Below are positions 5,644-24,610 of a stretch of DNA of 64,000 nt, piece by piece; the stretch's first letter is position 1, and every line of letters begins with the position of its first letter. Both the position numbers and the translations under genes were made by a program. The notes below the pieces were generated by a model, which did not search any database, was not told the origin of the DNA, and saw only the letters and a program-made list of their open reading frames with translations. The stretch is taken from positions 1,426,001 through 1,490,000 of the forward strand of contig NZ_CP030944.1 in assembly GCF_013177635.1 (NCBI RefSeq). The letters are read 5' to 3'. Source of the DNA: Arcobacter aquimarinus. GTDB lineage: Bacteria > Campylobacterota > Campylobacteria > Campylobacterales > Arcobacteraceae.

Positions 5644-6621
5644 ATGAAATTTAAAGATGTAATAAAGTTATGGACTTTAACAACAATTTTAACTGCAATT
5701 GAACAAATAAAAGCAGTAAATTCTAAGATATTTGATAAGTATTTTAAAGCAAATGCAAAGCCTGTTATGGGAAACACAGCAACACTAAAGATTAGAAAAG
5801 GTGCTGGAGTTGTTCTTGAAACAATACTACCAGGTGCAGAAAGATTGGTTAAAGATTTAAAAGATGTTTATGAAATCACTATCAAACTTCCAAGATTTGG
5901 TTTACAAGATACTATCTTGCCACATGAGATAAATGAGTTTGAATCACTAGAAGGTAGAGCAATAGTTGAAGCTGTATCAAAAAAAATAGCAACACTTTTA
6001 AAAGAGCATAAAGATGACTACATGACAACTTTAGAATTTATGTGTGTTGGTGCTTTATTTGGAAAAGTTGTTGATGGTTCTGGAAAAGTTCTATTTGAAT
6101 TTAGAAGTACTGCAACACCAATTGAGTTTAAAAACAAAGAGATTGATATTGCTTTAAATGAAATAGATAATGCACTTGTGGATGAGTTAGGAACTGAAGT
6201 ACCTTATGATATTTTATGTTCAAACGAGTTCTTTAACAAAGTTGTAGCAAAAGCAAAAACTGCTGGAGATTTTGAAAATAAAACTGCATCTTACATTGAT
6301 GAAGATGGAACTAGAATTTTAGTTTCACATGGAAAAAGGTTTGTTCCTTATAGAACTTCATATACTGATGAGAATGGAAACACAAAGAAATTCTTAAAAG
6401 CAAACGAAGCTATTGTAATTCCAAAATCTGAAAAAGTTTATGAAGTTGTTTATGGAAGAGCTGATCATACTGAAGCTGTAAAAGTTGCACCAAAAATGTT
6501 CTTTGCTGCTACTCCACAAGAGTTAGAAAGAGGAAAAGGATATGCAATTGATACAGAAATGAAAGCAATGCCATATTGTACAAGACCAGGTGCTTTGATT
6601 AATTTAGTTTTTTCTAACTAA
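5644..6621 (+). CDS. major capsid protein (gpE family)
   Basis: A 325-residue capsid protein of the lambda gpE/HK97-fold type. The N-terminal half has the peptide KLPRFGLQDTILPHEINEFES (about residues 81-101), matching the family's conserved P-H-x-x-x-x-x-x-x motif. Near residues 180-225 it has DELGTEVPYDILCSNEFFNK. The C-terminal TEMKAMPYCTRPGALINLVF is typical. It follows the decoration gene with AGGAG and is followed by a strong terminator, so it ends the first head operon segment. Confidence 0.88.
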   Translation: MKFKDVIKLWTLTTILTAIEQIKAVNSKIFDKYFKANAKPVMGNTATLKIRKGAGVVLETILPGAERLVKDLKDVYEITIKLPRFGLQDTILPHEINEFESLEGRAIVEAVSKKIATLLKEHKDDYMTTLEFMCVGALFGKVVDGSGKVLFEFRSTATPIEFKNKEIDIALNEIDNALVDELGTEVPYDILCSNEFFNKVVAKAKTAGDFENKTASYIDEDGTRILVSHGKRFVPYRTSYTDENGNTKKFLKANEAIVIPKSEKVYEVVYGRADHTEAVKVAPKMFFAATPQELERGKGYAIDTEMKAMPYCTRPGALINLVFSN

Positions 6622-7152: not shown

Positions 7153-7658
7153 TGCCAAAATTGAGTAATGCAGATAGAAATAGAATATTAGCAAGAAGTT
7201 TATTTGTTGATGCAAATAAAAGCTATATAGAAATTGCTGAAACTTTAGAAGTAAGTGATAAAACTGTACAAAATTATCAAAGTAAAGATAAAGCTGAAGG
7301 TTTTGATTGGCTTACATTAAGAGCTACAAAACATATCAAAGAGACTCAAGAAACAAAAGAGAATATGTACTCTATGTTTATAACTTACATGTACCAAACT
7401 CTAAAAGAGATTAGAGAAAATGAAAAGATGAATGTTGAAAACAAGGCTCAAATGATAGTAAGCCTTGGAGATAGTTTCTCTAAAATGGGGAAAATTGCAA
7501 GACAAGAAGACCCTGAAGCTTATAAATTAGGAATTATAAAAGTAACTATTGAAAAAATATTAACTTCTTTAAAAAGAGAGCTTAGTGTTGAATGTATGGA
7601 AAAAGTTATAGAAACTGTTTATGAAATTCAAGAGGAACTAGCAAATGTCTCTATTTGA
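7152..7658 (+). CDS. phage terminase small subunit, DUF1804-like
   Basis: A 168-residue protein with an N-terminal HTH (IEIAETLEVSDKTVQNYQSKDKAEGFDW, about residues 25-52) and a helical C-terminal part, the layout of small terminase subunits of the DUF1804 group. It directly precedes the large subunit and overlaps it by 14 bases. Its role is DNA recognition and loading of the packaging motor. The family name is from pattern and context. Confidence 0.72.
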   Translation: MPKLSNADRNRILARSLFVDANKSYIEIAETLEVSDKTVQNYQSKDKAEGFDWLTLRATKHIKETQETKENMYSMFITYMYQTLKEIRENEKMNVENKAQMIVSLGDSFSKMGKIARQEDPEAYKLGIIKVTIEKILTSLKRELSVECMEKVIETVYEIQEELANVSI

Positions 7659-12799: not shown

Positions 12800-12823
12800 T
12801 TTTAACCTCCATAAAAATAATGG

Positions 12824-12852
12824 ATTATACCCAAATAAATAACATTATGCAA
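12824..12852 (-). promoter_or_regulatory. putative promoter of the Mor-family gene
   Basis: On the minus strand TTGCAT (12852-12847) and TATAAT (12829-12824) are 17 bases apart, upstream of a GGAGG ribosome site. Just upstream, the direct repeats GAAATACTTAT (12878-12888) and GAAATATACTTAT (12908-12920) are about three helical turns apart and could be protein-binding sites. Confidence 0.5.
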
Positions 12853-12941
12853 TAAATAAGATATATTATTTCTATTTGAAATACTTATAAAATATTTATT
12901 ACAATATGAAATATACTTATGTAATAGTGTTGTTTTTCTTT

Positions 12942-13319
12942 TTATCTCATGTTTTCTAAAGCTACAATAACTTTTGTAGCATCATTCTTTGTTAAAGTAA
13001 TCATCTCTTTTTTTACTATCTTTGAAACAAAACTATTTAAGGCATTTTGACTTTTATCTTTAGCTTTTAAATACCAAGTATCATATATCTTTTTTAGTTG
13101 AGCTTCAGTAGGTTTTGAAAAAGGAATATCACTTACATTTCTATTGCAAAAATCTAAAAGTAGTTTTAGTTCATCTATACTTAGCTTAGTTGTACTATCA
13201 ACTCCAAAGCGAGAGAGCATAAATTCTTTTCGAACTTCATCATCTATAAAAACATTATGTTTAGCTATTTGAATCTTTTGAATAAGGCTTTTTTTATAAG
13301 ATTGTTGTTTGTTTGTCAT
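12942..13319 (-). CDS. GemA / Mu gp16-like regulatory protein (DUF1018)
   Basis: A 125-residue basic protein of the gp16/GemA group. It starts with a lysine-rich helix, then LIQKIQIAKHNVFIDDEVRKEFM with RFGVDSTTKLSIDELKLLLDFC, the family core. GemA of Mu modulates host gene expression and DNA supercoiling; the exact role here is not shown by sequence. It lies between the AAA ATPase and the Mor-family gene, as in other transposable phages. AAAGGA precedes the ATG. The upstream gap holds the iteron-like repeats. Confidence 0.78.
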   Translation of the reverse strand: MTNKQQSYKKSLIQKIQIAKHNVFIDDEVRKEFMLSRFGVDSTTKLSIDELKLLLDFCNRNVSDIPFSKPTEAQLKKIYDTWYLKAKDKSQNALNSFVSKIVKKEMITLTKNDATKVIVALENMR

Positions 13320-13334
13320 AGTTTTTCCTTTTTC

Positions 13335-13415
13335 TATACAACCTTTACAACCTATACAACCCCTATAATATAAGCCTTTGTTTGTGGTAGTTGTAGTGGT
13401 TGTAGCGGTTGCATT
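13335..13415. repeat. inverted array of 9-bp iteron-like repeats (3 + 3)
   Basis: Three tandem 9-mers TATACAACC, TTTACAACC, TATACAACC occupy 13335-13361. After an AT-rich centre with TATAAT (13364-13369), three 9-mers in the opposite orientation (cores AGTTGTA, GGTTGTA, GGTTGCA) occupy 13389-13415, the last reaching into the ATPase stop. In RNA the two halves could pair. TTTACAACC recurs exactly at 24266-24274 in the prophage-end cluster. Confidence 0.75.
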
Positions 13416-14322
13416 AAATTAAAGTATAAGTTATAGGTTTACCTTTTTTTTCTTGGTATTTACTCCAAAACTTATCAGTAAACTTATCCAAAGTATCCCT
13501 TGCCGTTTTATCTGTTTTTTCATATCCGATTTGATTTAAAAGTTCAGTTTGTCCTAATCCATCAGGATTTTTCTTTAATATCTCTTTTGCTTTTCTTACA
13601 AAATTTTCTTCATATTCACTCATGGTGGCATAAACTTCATCCAGTTTTGAGAGTTCTAAAGTTTTGGTACTTACACTAACTCCAATATCTTTTACAAGGT
13701 TCCGTGAGTGTGTTACATTTAACATCAAATGTAGCATATTTTCTTCTCTAGCTTTTTGAATCATTTCATAAACATTATCGGGAGAGTTTATAAATACTTG
13801 AACTCCTGATATTGTACTTCCTGATTTTGTTGCATGATGCATTATGATAACAGTTGCACCTGCATCTCTTATTCTCATAATAATCTTCATAAATTCTTCA
13901 GATTGACTTTTACTATCTGTATCTACAAAATCCTTTGTAGTTTCAAATACAAAAGTTACATCTTTATAATTATCTCTCTTTGCCTCCTCATCTATTTGTC
14001 TTAAGTAGTCAATAGGAGAGCAGCTAATCTTTGCACGACTAACATATTCAACTTTGGGATGATTTATTAATTTATCATCTATTTTTCTCTCAGCTAAAGA
14101 GCTAAGTCCATTATCCATGTCTACATAGATAATTCTTCTTATGTCGTTTCTTTTTGCTAAAGTTGTAGTAATTCCATATCCAAGCCATGTTTTACCTTGT
14201 TTAGGTGGAGAATATATCAGAGATACACTATTAGAGTATAAAAAATCTTTAATATATTCTACTTTTTCACCCAAAGAAAAATCTTCTTTAACTAAAGTAT
14301 TTCCTTTTAAAAAATTAAACAT
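13414..14322 (-). CDS. RecA-fold AAA ATPase (RepA-like)
   Basis: An ATPase of 302 residues from the ATG at 14322. SLIYSPPKQGKTWLGYG (about residues 35-51) is the Walker A, IIYVDMDNG and VTFVFETTKDF match Walker B-type strands, and IIMHHATKSGSTISGVQVFINSPDNV matches the sensor/loop region of the RepA/AAA_25 hexameric ATPase group. The C-terminal ~65 residues look like a winged helix. A GTG at 14331 is an alternative start. It may help phage replication; Mu itself has no clear counterpart. It lies just before the iteron-like array. Confidence 0.75.
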   Translation of the reverse strand: MFNFLKGNTLVKEDFSLGEKVEYIKDFLYSNSVSLIYSPPKQGKTWLGYGITTTLAKRNDIRRIIYVDMDNGLSSLAERKIDDKLINHPKVEYVSRAKISCSPIDYLRQIDEEAKRDNYKDVTFVFETTKDFVDTDSKSQSEEFMKIIMRIRDAGATVIIMHHATKSGSTISGVQVFINSPDNVYEMIQKAREENMLHLMLNVTHSRNLVKDIGVSVSTKTLELSKLDEVYATMSEYEENFVRKAKEILKKNPDGLGQTELLNQIGYEKTDKTARDTLDKFTDKFWSKYQEKKGKPITYTLI

Positions 14323-14626
14323 TTTTATCACTCACTTTCTCTAATTTCTCTTTTAACCATTTTTCTAATTTTGCTTTATCATCAGAACTTACTCTCTCAA
14401 GCAAAATATCAAAGTCATGTTTTTGATTAGTTCTTCCATATTTAAACTCCCAAAATAAGACTTTTAAAAGCCATTTTAGAAGTTCGTCTTCTTTTGCATC
14501 TTTTGTAATAGAGTTAAAATAGTTCATAAACTCATCAACTTTATCATAGGTGCAAATATGTACTTGCATTCTCTTATAAGCTTCATCTAGTTTTTTATTT
14601 CCTGTATCAACTGTTAGTATGTTCAT
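14315..14626 (-). CDS. unknown early phage protein
   Basis: A 103-residue protein from ATG 14626 (MNILTVDTGNKKLDEAY), chosen because AGGAG lies upstream; a longer frame reaches 14668 without a ribosome site. It is mostly helical and charged, with WLLKVLFWEFKYGRTNQKHDF in the middle and a lysine-rich end. No family is recognised. It overlaps the ATPase by 8 bases and the upstream coiled-coil gene by 20, so it is translated within the early operon. Confidence 0.6.
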   Translation of the reverse strand: MNILTVDTGNKKLDEAYKRMQVHICTYDKVDEFMNYFNSITKDAKEDELLKWLLKVLFWEFKYGRTNQKHDFDILLERVSSDDKAKLEKWLKEKLEKVSDKNV

Positions 14627-14819
14627 TTTTCTTTCTCTCCTCGTAATACCATCTTTGAAATTTCTCAAGTTCTAACTCTAAATGTTTATTTGAACTCTTA
14701 ATTTTTCTAAGTTCATTTTGTGTATCTTTAACTCTAAACTCTGCTTTTAGCCACATATCATAAAGTTCTTCTTTTGTAATTGTTTTAAGAAATTCTTCTT
14801 TTTCTATAATCTCACCCAT
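14607..14819 (-). CDS. small coiled-coil early protein
   Basis: A 70-residue, strongly charged protein (EELYDMWLKAEFRVKDTQNE, SNKHLELELEKFQRWYYEER) that is predicted helical or coiled-coil over most of its length. It could bind a partner ATPase or DNA-associated protein, but no family is recognised. A hairpin (14844-14869) lies in its leader. It belongs to the early operon. Confidence 0.6.
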   Translation of the reverse strand: MGEIIEKEEFLKTITKEELYDMWLKAEFRVKDTQNELRKIKSSNKHLELELEKFQRWYYEERKKNEHTNS

Positions 14820-14843
14820 CTTTACTCCTACTTAATAATCTCA

Positions 14844-14869
14844 ATAGAACAGCTCGTAAGCTGCTCTAT
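14844..14869. other. hairpin in the early operon
   Basis: ATAGAACAGCT (14844-14854) and AGCTGCTCTAT (14859-14869) pair over 11 bases with one mismatch or G-T pair and a four-base loop. No T run follows on either strand. It lies between the 36- and 70-residue genes and may affect RNA processing or translation. Confidence 0.6.
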
Positions 14870-14881
14870 GAAACTACTCCC

Positions 14882-14992
14882 TCATCTTGACGAGTAATCT
14901 TTCACAACAGTAAAACCATTGTCTTTCAACTCTTTCAGGGCTTCTTGCTCTTTTTCTTTATATTTTTTATTCTCGTCAGATTGGGGTATCAT
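14882..14992 (-). CDS. 36-residue early protein
   Basis: A short ORF starting MIPQSDENKKYKEKEQEALK and ending DYSSR. It overlaps the upstream gene by ATGA, supporting real translation. The protein is charged and helical at the N-terminus, with a small NGFTVVKDY end. No function is recognised. The hairpin at 14844-14869 lies just downstream. Confidence 0.55.
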   Translation of the reverse strand: MIPQSDENKKYKEKEQEALKELKDNGFTVVKDYSSR

Positions 14993-15309
14993 TCTCTACC
15001 ATCCGACGAATATCCAAAAGCTTTATAATTCACTGCAAGTTTCTTATTACTATCATTTCCTGCATAATCTTTAAATCCTTCATTCATTTCTTTTTTATGT
15101 ATCTCTTTAGCAAGACTAATGTCAGAATCTAAAAAACTATTAGTTTCATTAATATCAAACCAATCAACAGCTTGATTTAATACCTCTTCAACTGTATCAC
15201 CTGTAAAAACTACAACTTCATCAAGGACAAGTCTATACTTGCCTTTTTTACACTGTAAATTAAAGTTATTGGAATTTTCTTTTAAAATTTCAAATAGTTC
15301 TTCTATCAT
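14989..15309 (-). CDS. unknown early phage protein
   Basis: A 106-residue protein beginning MIEELFEILKENSNNF. The ATG at 15309 is chosen because AGGAGG is 7 bases upstream and because it overlaps the preceding gene's stop as TAATG; the ATG two codons earlier sits too close to the ribosome site. The first half resembles a small alpha/beta fold (GKYRLVLDEVVVFTGDTVEEVLNQAVDWF). It looks like a phage accessory protein with no assigned role. Confidence 0.6.
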   Translation of the reverse strand: MIEELFEILKENSNNFNLQCKKGKYRLVLDEVVVFTGDTVEEVLNQAVDWFDINETNSFLDSDISLAKEIHKKEMNEGFKDYAGNDSNKKLAVNYKAFGYSSDGRE

Positions 15310-15485
15310 TACCATTCCTCCTCACTATCATCCTCCTCTGACATCTCAAAATCAGGACAATCTCTTATTTCATCATCTAGATAATTTCCATAAGCCTTAC
15401 ATTCAAAAGTTCCATCTGTATAATCACTTCCTTTATATTTACAGTTGAAGCAACAGTTTGTTGCTATTCTTATCATAGTTCCCAT
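15309..15485 (-). CDS. 58-residue cysteine-containing early protein
   Basis: A short ORF starting MGTMIRIATNCCFNCKYKG with cysteines in NCCFNC, FECKAYG and IRDCPDFE, suggesting a small zinc ribbon, then an acidic tail (SEEDDSEEEW). GAGG lies 7 bases upstream of ATG 15485; its start overlaps the end of the 41-residue gene and its stop overlaps the next start (TAATG). Function is unknown. Confidence 0.62.
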   Translation of the reverse strand: MGTMIRIATNCCFNCKYKGSDYTDGTFECKAYGNYLDDEIRDCPDFEMSEEDDSEEEW

Positions 15486-15598
15486 CTTTTAACCTCTTCA
15501 AGCTTTCTATACGCAGCAGGGAAGATAAACTTCTTGTTTATATCTGCTTCCTCTGCTCTTTCTCTTTCTTCCCAATAATATGCTTCTTGTGGATTCAT
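15473..15598 (-). CDS. 41-residue early protein
   Basis: A short ORF starting MNPQEAYYWEERERAEEAD and ending EEVKRWEL. It overlaps the endolysin stop by ATGA and the next gene by 13 bases. The peptide is charged and helical. No family is recognised. The chained overlaps, not similarity, are the evidence that it is translated. Confidence 0.55.
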   Translation of the reverse strand: MNPQEAYYWEERERAEEADINKKFIFPAAYRKLEEVKRWEL

Positions 15599-16161
15599 CT
15601 CAAAGCCTTTAAATACTCCAAGCTTTCTGCTATTGCTTCACAAAATCCTGCTGTAAGACTTCCTTGATTAAAACATAGTTCCCCATTTATAAGTTCATCA
15701 TCGTTATCTATAAAAAAAGGTTCTGTTATTATGCAAGGAGCATTTGTATATCTAAGCATATAACCACCTCTATCTTCAGCTGTTTTAGGTTTTATACCTC
15801 TATCTTTATTTTTTAAAACTGCTAATATATTTTTTTGAAAAATAGTAGCTATAGCTTTACCTTTTATAGATTTGTGATAATAAAGTGTTTCACAACCATT
15901 TGCTTGTTTATTAAAAGCATTACAATGTAACTCTATTACCAAATCAGGTTTTTGAGCATTTACTTCATTTGGTAAATTCTGTAAAGTTGTTTTTCTATAC
16001 ATAACAACTATTTCGTGTTGGTCAAAATTAAATAAGTTCCCAAAATTATGCTCAATATCATGTGCAAGTTTTTGATTAAATTCAAACTCTGTAGTTCCAT
16101 AAGTGCTATTCATAGCACCTTTAGATCTTTCTTGATGTCCTATTACTACTGCTACTTTCAT
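15595..16161 (-). CDS. endolysin, N-acetylmuramoyl-L-alanine amidase (Amidase_3)
   Basis: A 188-residue zinc amidase that cuts the lactyl-peptide bond of peptidoglycan. The Amidase_3 residues are visible: VVIGHQ (His9), an acidic residue near TTEFEF (Glu25/27), VIELHCNA (His79), and the catalytic glutamate in IITEPFF (Glu147). No signal peptide is present, so export should need the holin. Unusually it lies in the early operon, about 12 kb from the holin/spanin genes. Its start overlaps the DUF3164 stop. Confidence 0.85.
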   Translation of the reverse strand: MKVAVVIGHQERSKGAMNSTYGTTEFEFNQKLAHDIEHNFGNLFNFDQHEIVVMYRKTTLQNLPNEVNAQKPDLVIELHCNAFNKQANGCETLYYHKSIKGKAIATIFQKNILAVLKNKDRGIKPKTAEDRGGYMLRYTNAPCIITEPFFIDNDDELINGELCFNQGSLTAGFCEAIAESLEYLKALR

Positions 16162-17003
16162 TATTTCTCTCCTATATTATTTCCTGCTTCTTGCCAACAT
16201 TTTTCCTCTTCTTTTGCATATGCTAAAGCTTCATCTATACTCTTACCTTCATCAAATAGTTTTCTCCAGTAATAATCATCTCCAGCTTCAATAAATACAA
16301 ATTTATTTTCTCTTCTTAAAAGATTTCTTTTCCATTTTATAAACTCAATACTTTTTTGAATTACTGTGTCTTGTATAGGAAGAGCTGCAAGATCTAAAAC
16401 AATTCCTTCCCACATTCCATCTAGTTTTAATTCCTCTTTTTGTCTAAGATTTATGTAAGATTTTGTACCTGTCGTAATTCTTGCACTTTGTAATAGTTCA
16501 ACTCCTTCTTTCCAAAATGGATGTTCAAATCCCCAATTTATAAGCTTTTGGATATCTCTATCATCATATTTTCCATTTTTAGGCTCTAATGCACCTAGAA
16601 CAATAGTTTTTATGTCATTGTCTTCAATATCTTTTATTTTTAAATTTGCATACTGTAGAAACTTTTCTTTTGCAAGTTCAACTTTCACTTGGTTATAGTC
16701 AATAAGATTATTTACAGAAATTTTAAATTCTTTCGTTCCATTAAAAGACTTCAAAGTTATTCTTTCTGTTTTTCCTTTCAATCTTTCGATGTTATATTCT
16801 TCCCTTAGATTGTCTAAAAAAGCGTAACATTCGCTATAAACAAAATCTTTATATTCCAAAATAGCAGCTTGAAGTTTCAAACCTTTAGCATGGATTTTTT
16901 CTACAAGTTCATCTTCAAGTTGTTCATCAATATCTATCCTAGCAGGATGTTTATATTCACCTGTTTTATCCTGCCACCAACCCTTATCATCTATAATTGG
17001 CAT
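16161..17003 (-). CDS. DUF3164 family phage protein (Mu gp08-like)
   Basis: A 280-residue protein with a typical DUF3164 start: GWWQDKTGEYKHPARIDID and then DELVEKIHAKGLKLQAAILEYKDF. The family occurs in the early region of transposable phages; its role is not established. The last ~80 residues (from about 200) add RNLLRRENKFVFIEAGDDYYW and may be a second domain, making it longer than I expect for the family. AAGGAG precedes the ATG. Confidence 0.75.
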   Translation of the reverse strand: MPIIDDKGWWQDKTGEYKHPARIDIDEQLEDELVEKIHAKGLKLQAAILEYKDFVYSECYAFLDNLREEYNIERLKGKTERITLKSFNGTKEFKISVNNLIDYNQVKVELAKEKFLQYANLKIKDIEDNDIKTIVLGALEPKNGKYDDRDIQKLINWGFEHPFWKEGVELLQSARITTGTKSYINLRQKEELKLDGMWEGIVLDLAALPIQDTVIQKSIEFIKWKRNLLRRENKFVFIEAGDDYYWRKLFDEGKSIDEALAYAKEEEKCWQEAGNNIGEK

Positions 17004-17028
17004 ATTTTCTCCTTATAATTTATTTTAT

Positions 17029-17064
17029 TGAGTACTCACTAAAGCTATCTTTTTTAAGATAGCT
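17029..17064. other. palindrome TGAGTACTCA and adjacent hairpin
   Basis: TGAGTACTCA (17029-17038) is a perfect 10-bp palindrome; the same 10-mer is at 21687-21696 in the early control region. Next to it AGCTATCTT (17043-17051) and AAGATAGCT (17056-17064) form a 9-bp stem with a four-base loop. The hairpin lies right after the stop of the 82-residue gene and may be an attenuator or processing site. Confidence 0.55.
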
Positions 17065-17313
17065 CTATGAATGCTCTTCTTTATCATCTCCACCAAGTGG
17101 ATATTTTTTACAACTTTTATCATTTGCTTTTTGTGTAAGTAGCCTTATGTTTTCTCTTTGATCTACGATACTTAAACCTAGAAGTAAGGCTATTTTTCTA
17201 CACATTTGTTCTGCTTGTCCTTCATTTAAAATAATCCCTATCTCTTCATTATGTAGCTGGATAATATGTTCTTCATCTTTTCTTAATTTTCTTACTTCAA
17301 TATCACTATTCAT
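17065..17313 (-). CDS. unknown small early protein
   Basis: An 82-residue protein beginning MNSDIEVRKLRKDEEHIIQL, with a central NEEIGIILNEGQAEQMCRKIALLLGL segment and a charged tail. Its ribosome site (AAGGAG) lies in the end of the upstream one-TM gene, and the two overlap as ATGA. No family is recognised. It precedes DUF3164 in the operon. Confidence 0.55.
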   Translation of the reverse strand: MNSDIEVRKLRKDEEHIIQLHNEEIGIILNEGQAEQMCRKIALLLGLSIVDQRENIRLLTQKANDKSCKKYPLGGDDKEEHS

Positions 17314-17426
17314 TTTTTCTCCTTGAAAGGTATTTTATTTTTATCTTTTCTTTTATTTCCTGCAACCTCTGCTGCAACATAGCCAGCTATAAACCACGCA
17401 AAACAAAGTATTAAAGTTATTTCCAT
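17310..17426 (-). CDS. 38-residue one-TM early protein
   Basis: A short ORF starting MEITLILCFAWFIAGYVAAE, one membrane segment followed by a basic tail (GNKRKDKNKIPFKEKK). Its 3' end encodes the ribosome site for the next gene and overlaps it as ATGA. A small membrane protein near early genes could be a superinfection-exclusion or coupling peptide. The function is unknown. Confidence 0.55.
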   Translation of the reverse strand: MEITLILCFAWFIAGYVAAEVAGNKRKDKNKIPFKEKK

Positions 17427-17428
17427 TG

Positions 17429-17656
17429 TCACTCTTCTATCTCCTTTAAAAGCTGGATTAGGTCTGTAGTGGAACTTTCCACACCTATTATTTCTTGTTT
17501 GTAATATTCTTTGATTTTTGAGTATATTTTTTGGGGATTTGGATATTGTTTTCTTGCAACTAAACTAATAGTTGTTTTGGATAAACCTAACTCTTTGGCA
17601 ACCTTACCTATGGACTTTTCTTTTATTTTTTCTTTAAGTATTTTTAATGAATCCAT
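17429..17656 (-). CDS. small HTH DNA-binding protein
   Basis: A 75-residue protein with an HTH at about residues 16-42: IGKVAKELGLSKTTISLVARKQYPNP, an XRE/Cro-like pattern. The C-terminal part is a short charged helix. It lies directly after the winged-helix-like gene in the early operon (13-base overlap). It may regulate early transcription; the target is unknown. Confidence 0.68.
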   Translation of the reverse strand: MDSLKILKEKIKEKSIGKVAKELGLSKTTISLVARKQYPNPQKIYSKIKEYYKQEIIGVESSTTDLIQLLKEIEE

Positions 17657-18282
17657 AAGTGTTTCATTTCAGGCTCACCTTTTATATATGCGCCTTTTAA
17701 TAGTTCTTCTTTAACTTTTTTAGCATTTTCTACATTAAATTTATAGATTAATTTATCATCTTTTCTTTTTCTTCTTTCATACCATTTATCTTCTAATTTT
17801 TCATTTATATATCCCTCAACAATACCTAATTTAATAAGTCTTTTCCACCATTTTCTCAAACCTCCATTTGCACAATTTGCTTTTAAACATATTTCTTCAA
17901 AAGTTAATTCAGTAGCATCAATAGCAGTTAAAATATTCATAAGTGTTTTTGGATAAACTATTTTTTCTTTTCTTTTAATAGAAGTTTCTATTTTTGTTTT
18001 TAGATTTGGGTCGTATAAAGTATTACCATTTAATTTAGGTGCAAAAATTCCAGTATCTTTTATCAATCTATATTGAATTTCAGTAAAAGGCTTTCTTGAT
18101 TTTCCTTCAAATTTAATATAATTTGCTTCCTCTAAAACTTTTAAATAAGCTTTAAAATTTGAATAACTTATATTAAATATAATAAAAATATCACCTACTC
18201 TAAATCTCTTATTTCTTCTTATGTAGTTCCAAATTTTATTTTTAACATTTTGTTTATATTTAATCTTTTTGTCTAGTTCCAT
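17644..18282 (-). CDS. predicted winged-helix protein of unknown function
   Basis: A 212-residue basic protein. Residues about 15-75 (NKIWNYIRRNKRFRVGDIF, then ISYSNFKAYLKVLEEANYIKF) look like a winged helix, and a second similar unit appears at about 110-150 (LMNILTAIDATELTFEEICLK ... WWKRLIKLGIVEGYI). Two winged helices suggest DNA binding. It overlaps the MuB-like gene by 23 bases, so it may help transposition or regulation. No named family is recognised. Confidence 0.55.
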   Translation of the reverse strand: MELDKKIKYKQNVKNKIWNYIRRNKRFRVGDIFIIFNISYSNFKAYLKVLEEANYIKFEGKSRKPFTEIQYRLIKDTGIFAPKLNGNTLYDPNLKTKIETSIKRKEKIVYPKTLMNILTAIDATELTFEEICLKANCANGGLRKWWKRLIKLGIVEGYINEKLEDKWYERRKRKDDKLIYKFNVENAKKVKEELLKGAYIKGEPEMKHLWIH

Positions 18283-24151: not shown

Positions 24152-24197
24152 TTTGCTTATAAAATGTATGTAACCTATCCAACATTTTATAAGCAAA
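24152..24197. terminator. inverted repeat / terminator after the lysogeny module
   Basis: TTTGCTTATAAAATGT (24152-24167) and ACATTTTATAAGCAAA (24182-24197) are perfect 16-base inverted arms with a 14-base loop, followed by ACTTTTAC. It likely ends the repressor/unknown-gene transcript. Confidence 0.75.
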
Positions 24198-24274
24198 ACT
24201 TTTACAATTTAGGTTGTATTGCTAAAGTTGTATTAGTTGTATTGCTCAGGTTGTATTACTCTACTTTTACAACC
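24198..24274. repeat. TTGTA-type repeats at the immunity-side prophage end
   Basis: ACTTTTACAA occurs at 24198-24207 and 24263-24272. Between them four GTTGTATT octamers (24213, 24227, 24236, 24250) form two tandem 23-bp units (24213-24235, 24236-24258) matching at 21 of 23 positions. TTTACAACC (24266-24274) also occurs in the 13.3 kb array. They may be transposase end-binding sites. Confidence 0.65.
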
Positions 24275-24275
24275 A

Positions 24276-24610
24276 TTTCATCCTCTTAAAATCATCAAAA
24301 AAGCAGCTCAAATTTTCCACACTTTTTTATATTAGATTATTACGAATATATCGGCTCTGTAGCTTTGTTTTGTAGTATAAAATTTCTAGTAGATTTATAT
24401 AAAAATAGCCAGATAGGGAAAATTGTACAAAAAAACTATACACATACATTTTTACAACTGCCCATAAAAAAGGCTCACAAATCCCACTAAATCGAAGCTA
24501 ATCCAAAAAAATGCCCTTTAAACTAGCACTTACTTTTCAACATAACCCTCACAATTAAAATAGTAATTGTTAAGATTTTTTTATTTTGTAATTTAGTTTT
24601 AATAATCATA
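24276..24610. other. gene-free stretch between prophage end and ovoA
   Basis: No ORF with a ribosome site is supported here. One more GTTGTA-like site lies near 24452-24459 (TTTTACAACTG, plus strand). The prophage-chromosome junction should lie in this stretch or at its left border, but the 5-bp target duplication cannot be found because the other end is outside the window. Confidence 0.4.

Follow-up and report, generated by a model that had tools for sequence, protein, structure and literature searches.

What reads the inverted array of six 9-bp repeats that lies between a gene for a putative ATPase and a gemA/gp16-like gene in a Mu-like prophage of Arcobacter aquimarinus, and for what purpose? 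The window analyzed here, a 64,000-nucleotide stretch of the genome (contig NZ_CP030944.1, positions 1,426,001 to 1,490,000), contains the locus together with the early end of the prophage. Taken as a whole, the reading that we favor by a modest degree is that the repeats are iterons for the winged helix of the adjacent ATPase, forming an origin-like assembly site.

Layout of the array and its flanking genes

The features of the locus, in window coordinates, are as follows.

12942-13319, minus strand: gemA/gp16-like gene, downstream of the array (GemA/Gp16, PF06252, E 6e-10)
13337-13361, plus strand: arm 2 as counted along the direction of transcription, with TACAACC as a direct box three times (13337-13343, 13346-13352 and 13355-13361) with a 9-bp period
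13362-13388, no strand assigned: AT-rich core of 27 bp between the arms, minus strand ACAAACAAAGGCTTATATTATAG
13389-13413, minus strand: arm 1, three boxes of opposite orientation with a 9-bp period, the outer box abutting the ATPase stop codon
13414-14331, minus strand: ATPase gene, 305 aa, phrog_6357 (E 1e-67), with a RecA-fold core at residues 22-231
13417-13617, minus strand: C-terminal winged helix of the ATPase, residues 239-305, with the recognition helix at residues 275-283 and Arg278 encoded at 13498-13500

The initial annotation had described three repeats followed by three in reverse orientation around an AT-rich core with TATAAT, flanked by an ATPase and Gp16, and all of these elements were confirmed. 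On the plus strand, the boxes of arm 1 read AGTTGTA (13389-13395), GGTTGTA (13398-13404) and an imperfect GGTTGCA (13407-13413), corresponding on the minus strand to TACAACT, TACAACC and TGCAACC, respectively. The TATAAT is located at 13364-13369, and arm 2 stops short of the gemA ribosome-binding region. Both halves were recovered by Tandem Repeats Finder, and the 25-nt arms are 80% complementary. A two-box pattern matched 10 times in the window, compared with a mean of 1.2 and a maximum of 4 over 100 shuffles, and a scan of the whole 2.52-Mb genome returned exact matches at this locus only. Comparison with a relative that retains an empty site (G005, flanks 96% identical) gave a prophage of ~35.0 kb, with the array 11.1 kb from the early end; its placement in the middle of the prophage was loose.

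The family of the ATPase, phrog_6357, is annotated as being of unknown function, and its member in phage CAM-P21 as a hypothetical protein. The AlphaFold model of the full protein (pLDDT 91.8, 53 sequences) contains a RecA fold at residues 22-231, matching RadA (8rxc) with Z 19.1 and rmsd 3.8 over 203 aligned residues and DnaB-type helicases with Z about 18. A distinct winged-helix domain occupies residues 239-305. Modeled in isolation, the winged helix (pLDDT 92.2) gave generic winged-helix matches with Z about 8; phage P4 alpha was not among the matches listed for this model, which is no argument against similarity. A Pfam scan of the ATPase detected no primase domain.

Conservation of the boxes next to the ATPase

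Conservation was examined at 111 ATPase loci sampled from Campylobacterota, Gammaproteobacteria and uncultured viruses. A triple repeat was scored where six or more of the nine columns were invariant among three successive 9-mers, between positions -90 and +140 of the ATPase stop, with no box assumed. A strong 9-bp triple repeat was present at 60 of the 111 loci. Shuffling produced such a repeat in 2 of 1110 cases, and none was seen in the 111 in-gene controls. Removal of near-duplicates left the array at 46 of 84 loci. The comparison of related prophages proposed in the initial annotation therefore found the array kept beside the ATPase. Arrays below the cut-off, or beyond one small gene, occur at L014, L018, L085, L171, L183 and L198, and no array was detectable at L104, L172 or in phage CAM-P21. 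L018 and L021 have further repeat triples in their late genes; these were set aside, since they lie inside coding frames and are probably codon repeats.

In relatives, the architecture 3' of the homologous ATPase remains constant while the boxes diverge, as listed below.

TACAACC: the window, G025, L010, L016, L017
TACGACC: G030, G007
mixed TACCACC/TACAACC: L011
AATACC: L013
TACAACTTC: L021
ACAACA: L043, L045
ACCAC: L113, L122, L123

The array lies directly 3' of the ATPase stop in most relatives. Close relatives share AAAG(C/G)C in the core, which ranges from 3 to about 30 bp in other relatives.

A strict form of the array, TACAACNNNTACAAC-N3..33-GTTGTANNNGTTGTA, was found on 12 of 2.9 million viral contigs and, in a set of 84,980 genomes, on 12 stretches, including Thiomicrorhabdus and Glaciecola; nearly all of these are at or near this ATPase, the exceptions being three Geobacter-type loci. 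On Geobacter-type contigs, a 3+3 array directly follows an 816-aa Toprim/DUF3987 protein (L097:3812-3867, L098:4200-4255 and L101:4200-4255). The L101 contig, labeled Anaerolineaceae, is identical at this place, and its binning may be wrong. The Toprim/DUF3987 protein is unrelated to the ATPase, and these arrays point in the same direction as the iteron reading.

The initial annotation had also raised an RNA hairpin formed from the two halves. A structured RNA or a cruciform, in which the arms would pair in the early mRNA or in the DNA and the fold itself would be the functional unit, accords with the folding of the window array (z -5.7 and -4.8 as RNA, -2.9 and -2.4 as DNA) and with arms that match level by level in some heterogeneous arrays (TACCACC/GGTGGTA in G030b, TATACAT/ATGTATA in L089). 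However, about 20 of the 46 non-redundant arrays lack a second arm, L207 (GTTGTCAAAGTTGTAAACGTTGTAG) and L199 (three copies of TACGACTGC) being examples, and the arms are not paired level by level in L013, G007b and L122. Moreover, Helicobacter- and Campylobacter-type phages carry three boxes within the ATPase coding tail, where they encode TTPTTLTTP or TTTDTTITT. Since many arrays are one-armed and some lie in coding sequence, the hairpin is not the conserved unit; arrays survive as three direct boxes alone or within the coding tail, indicating that the DNA boxes are what is kept. Across 17 arrays, the antisense strand folded better in 11, which leaves no consistently favored strand and no preference for that of the mRNA; Rfam gave no match in 12800-14400. 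We therefore consider a functional fold improbable.

Covariation of the winged helix and the boxes

Sliding nucleotide identity revealed that the winged helix and the array move together as a cassette between phages with differing ATPase cores. Between the window and L011, identity is 0.70-0.88 in the core, 0.57-0.68 in the winged helix and array, and 0.83-0.88 at the start of gemA; between L017 and G002, it is mostly 0.85-0.97 in the core (lowest 0.72), 0.60-0.75 in the cassette and 0.89 in the next block. The pairings of the window with L017 and of L011 with G002 have cores at 0.40-0.71 and cassettes at 0.82-0.97, with the exception of one array block at 0.65 in the latter. Linkage alone may explain part of this co-exchange, because the winged helix and the array are adjacent; in the comparison of the window with L017, the exchanged tract continues into gemA.

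Across 42 non-redundant loci, array similarity tracked winged-helix identity when core identity was controlled for (partial rho 0.39, permutation p 0.0005), compared with a partial rho of 0.02 for core identity when the winged helix was controlled for. The presence of an array also depended on winged-helix type (Fisher p 0.0004). Apart from a redundancy filter, these statistics treat related phages as independent. No such repeats were found beside the DRNGKR-type winged helix among the loci examined. The boxes also vary with the recognition helix, in a correlation drawn from few lineages: ACGAC or AATAC boxes are found where Arg278 is replaced by Asn (L012, L044, L013 and L199), and ACAAC boxes accompany Arg278-type proteins with few exceptions (ACCAC with Arg in L113, L122 and L123). 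Judged from these sequence patterns and the structural models, the array is very probably bound physically by the winged helix of the ATPase. The iteron interpretation offered in the initial annotation thus gains support from conserved 9-bp direct repeats that are tied to the winged helix of the adjacent ATPase.

The same annotation had suggested an internal transposase site, which brings in the ends of the prophage.

L008:9510 (TGTTAAAACGC...): late prophage end, in a comEC-like gene, from the G005 empty site
near window 24542 (...TTTTCAACA): early prophage end, from the G005 empty site
24212-24274, no strand assigned: further TACAACC-type boxes, clustered ~270-330 bp in from the early end, with spacings of 14, 9 and 14 bp

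In the 104 kb around the prophage, GTTGTA clusters are limited to the array and to 24212-24274, and the early-end cluster is conserved in relatives. On account of these early-end boxes, the array was at first taken for an internal end-like or enhancer-like site for the Mu-type transposase, and this was dropped because the late end is free of TACAAC boxes and the array tracks the winged helix of the ATPase. The early-end cluster is also built differently from the array, with 14/9/14 spacing on a fixed scaffold, and it keeps TACAAC in G030, where the first central array has TACGAC. Finally, the central array stays beside the ATPase across phyla, as judged by gene order. We now regard a transposase site as very unlikely. 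A candidate transposase site is offered by the AAATGTATGTGT motif, which occurs at both prophage ends (L008:9548-9580; window about 24440-24455 and 24157-24200).

Other features of the ends were observed. At the insertion in the comEC-like gene (L008:9510, window 24542), ~370 bp of host sequence is absent relative to G005, and no 5-bp target duplication is visible. In G007 (L060:4736-5115), the early-end cluster consists of five tandem blocks of ~80 bp on the scaffold AAAAGTAGAGCAA..CTAGCAA..TTTGAGCAA, with hexamers that are alike within a block and differ between blocks (GTAAAC, TGTAAC, AGTAAA, TATAAC and TACAAC). The late end of the prophage also carries a second S24-type repressor-like gene (L008:9612-10259) and a HEPN-domain gene (L008:10323-10985).

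Binding by the winged helix would also fit an operator, at which the ATPase, or a Rha-type paralog with the same winged helix, controls gemA, mor or its own operon. The array is within the gemA leader in most close relatives, and Rha-type regulators in other phages end in a winged-helix family related to that of the ATPase (L207:7223-7927 and L019:9138-9845; also L189, L190, L200 and L202). However, the constant neighbor of the array is the upstream ATPase, whereas the downstream gene varies (gemA, a small secreted-like protein in L086, and others), and some arrays lie within the ATPase coding tail. In addition, TATAAT is not conserved, promoter scans of the locus remained at background level, and the accompanying scan found no terminator. 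Use as an operator is the main rival to an origin or helicase-loading function; we consider it unlikely though worth weighing as the primary role, and possible as a secondary one.

In Mu, gemA is a gyrase-related gene. Its adjacency here and the internal position of the array would suit an architectural site that uses the bound ATPase, either organizing domains through gyrase, like the Mu strong gyrase site, at which end synapsis depends on preferential cleavage by gyrase, or acting in a partition-like manner; in outline, an ATPase on a multi-box site is reminiscent of partition complexes. The position of the array varies, however, and no ParB-type partner was seen, and we give such a site very little weight, slightly less than the transposase. 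Like the strong gyrase site and the end and enhancer sites of Mu, the array is a distinctive DNA element of a transposable phage genome, placed in its interior or close to its ends. Unlike the Mu sites, it is tied to the ATPase gene, and unlike the Mu end sites its TACAACC boxes are missing from the late end. To our knowledge, Mu lacks this ATPase gene.

A possible assembly site for the ATPase

If the array consists of iterons for the ATPase, each subunit would dock on one box by its winged helix. With three boxes per arm, the full 3+3 array could seat up to six subunits, arranged as two facing sets or as a single hexamer about the AT-rich core. By turning over ATP, the RecA-type ring might then melt or remodel the DNA at the core, or load a helicase. 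The outcome would be a site of the P4 alpha or pRN1 type, origin-like or serving replisome assembly, inside a transposable phage.

In phage P4 the box length is 9 bp, and crr is located near the gene. According to PMC4234260 (citing Ziegelin and Lanka 1995 and Yeo et al. 2002), the P4 alpha protein is a replication ATPase that recognizes short repeated boxes through an origin-binding winged helix at its C terminus. The present ATPase resembles P4 alpha in having a C-terminal winged helix, confidently modeled both in the full protein and alone (pLDDT 91.8 and 92.2), and short direct-repeat boxes nearby; it differs in that P4 alpha combines a Toprim primase with an SF3-type helicase, whereas this is a 305-aa RecA-fold protein without a primase, from a phage with a Mu-type transposase. 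The pRN1 protein ORF904 likewise ends in a winged helix, and its stem-loop origin lies just 3' of the replication gene, with an architecture that is kept while the sequence diverges; the replication protein of phage BIP-1 is a parallel case (PMC4234260). The array here is also directly downstream of a putative replication gene and diverges in sequence within a constant architecture. In contrast, ORF904 combines a prim-pol with an SF3 helicase, and its origin has no iterons and requires an intact stem-loop, whereas here the direct boxes are conserved and the one-armed arrays show that a stem-loop is not common to all members. We do not assign the system to the P4 or pRN1 class, as it has neither an SF3-type helicase nor a primase and not every member keeps a stem-loop. 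A relation to the RSF1010 RepA helicase may exist: RepA is also a RecA-type ATPase, although its sequence matches weakly (1g8y, E 0.26). RepA is not known to have a winged helix, and the iterons of the RSF1010 oriV are bound by a separate protein, RepC; here, unlike in RSF1010, the DNA-binding domain is fused to the ATPase.

Other points count against the favored reading. Mu-type phages replicate by transposition, for which an origin is not required, and the winged-helix family is partly fused to Rha-type regulators, which would fit a regulatory role. By analogy with the known systems, an origin or helicase-loading function, as opposed to an architectural or regulatory use of the bound ATPase, is a plausible prospect on which we would put slightly less than even weight. 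The further proposal that a large group of transposable, Mu-like phages carries an initiator-like module, comprising a RecA-fold ATPase, a fused iteron-binding winged helix and cognate iterons, which starts or restarts replication at a fixed internal site, so that transposition is not the sole source of DNA, is speculative, and we think it rather unlikely as it stands.

The open-access papers searched contained no description of iterons or a comparable array in Mu-like phages, and the present results suggest that these transposable phages may carry an origin-like loading site that has seemingly gone undescribed. A function is thereby proposed for the hypothetical gene phrog_6357 together with its DNA target, across Campylobacterota and Gammaproteobacteria. 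Should the site load a helicase or replisome, it would represent a replication step absent from the Mu model. If the initiator-like module exists, cassette swaps of winged helix and boxes would alter replicon specificity or prevent cross-talk between co-resident phages. These natural swaps also provide matched and mismatched pairs for studying DNA choice by winged helices.

Several relatives carry further features around the array. In G007 (L060, about 14313-17816), the ATPase gene is split by an insert of ~2.6 kb, and both downstream arrays are retained. L089:3880-4130 contains two tandem arrays. The boxes of the first read TATACAT, and behind it stands a truncated copy of the gemA start, as would result from a duplication of the array together with the gemA leader. 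In L015 and L059 (near 6000-6150), L014 (near 7300-7450) and L052 (near 16590-16700), a very short ORF on the opposite strand lies between the array and gemA; it has a ribosome-binding site and encodes a hydrophobic peptide of ~22-27 aa that resembles small membrane peptides.
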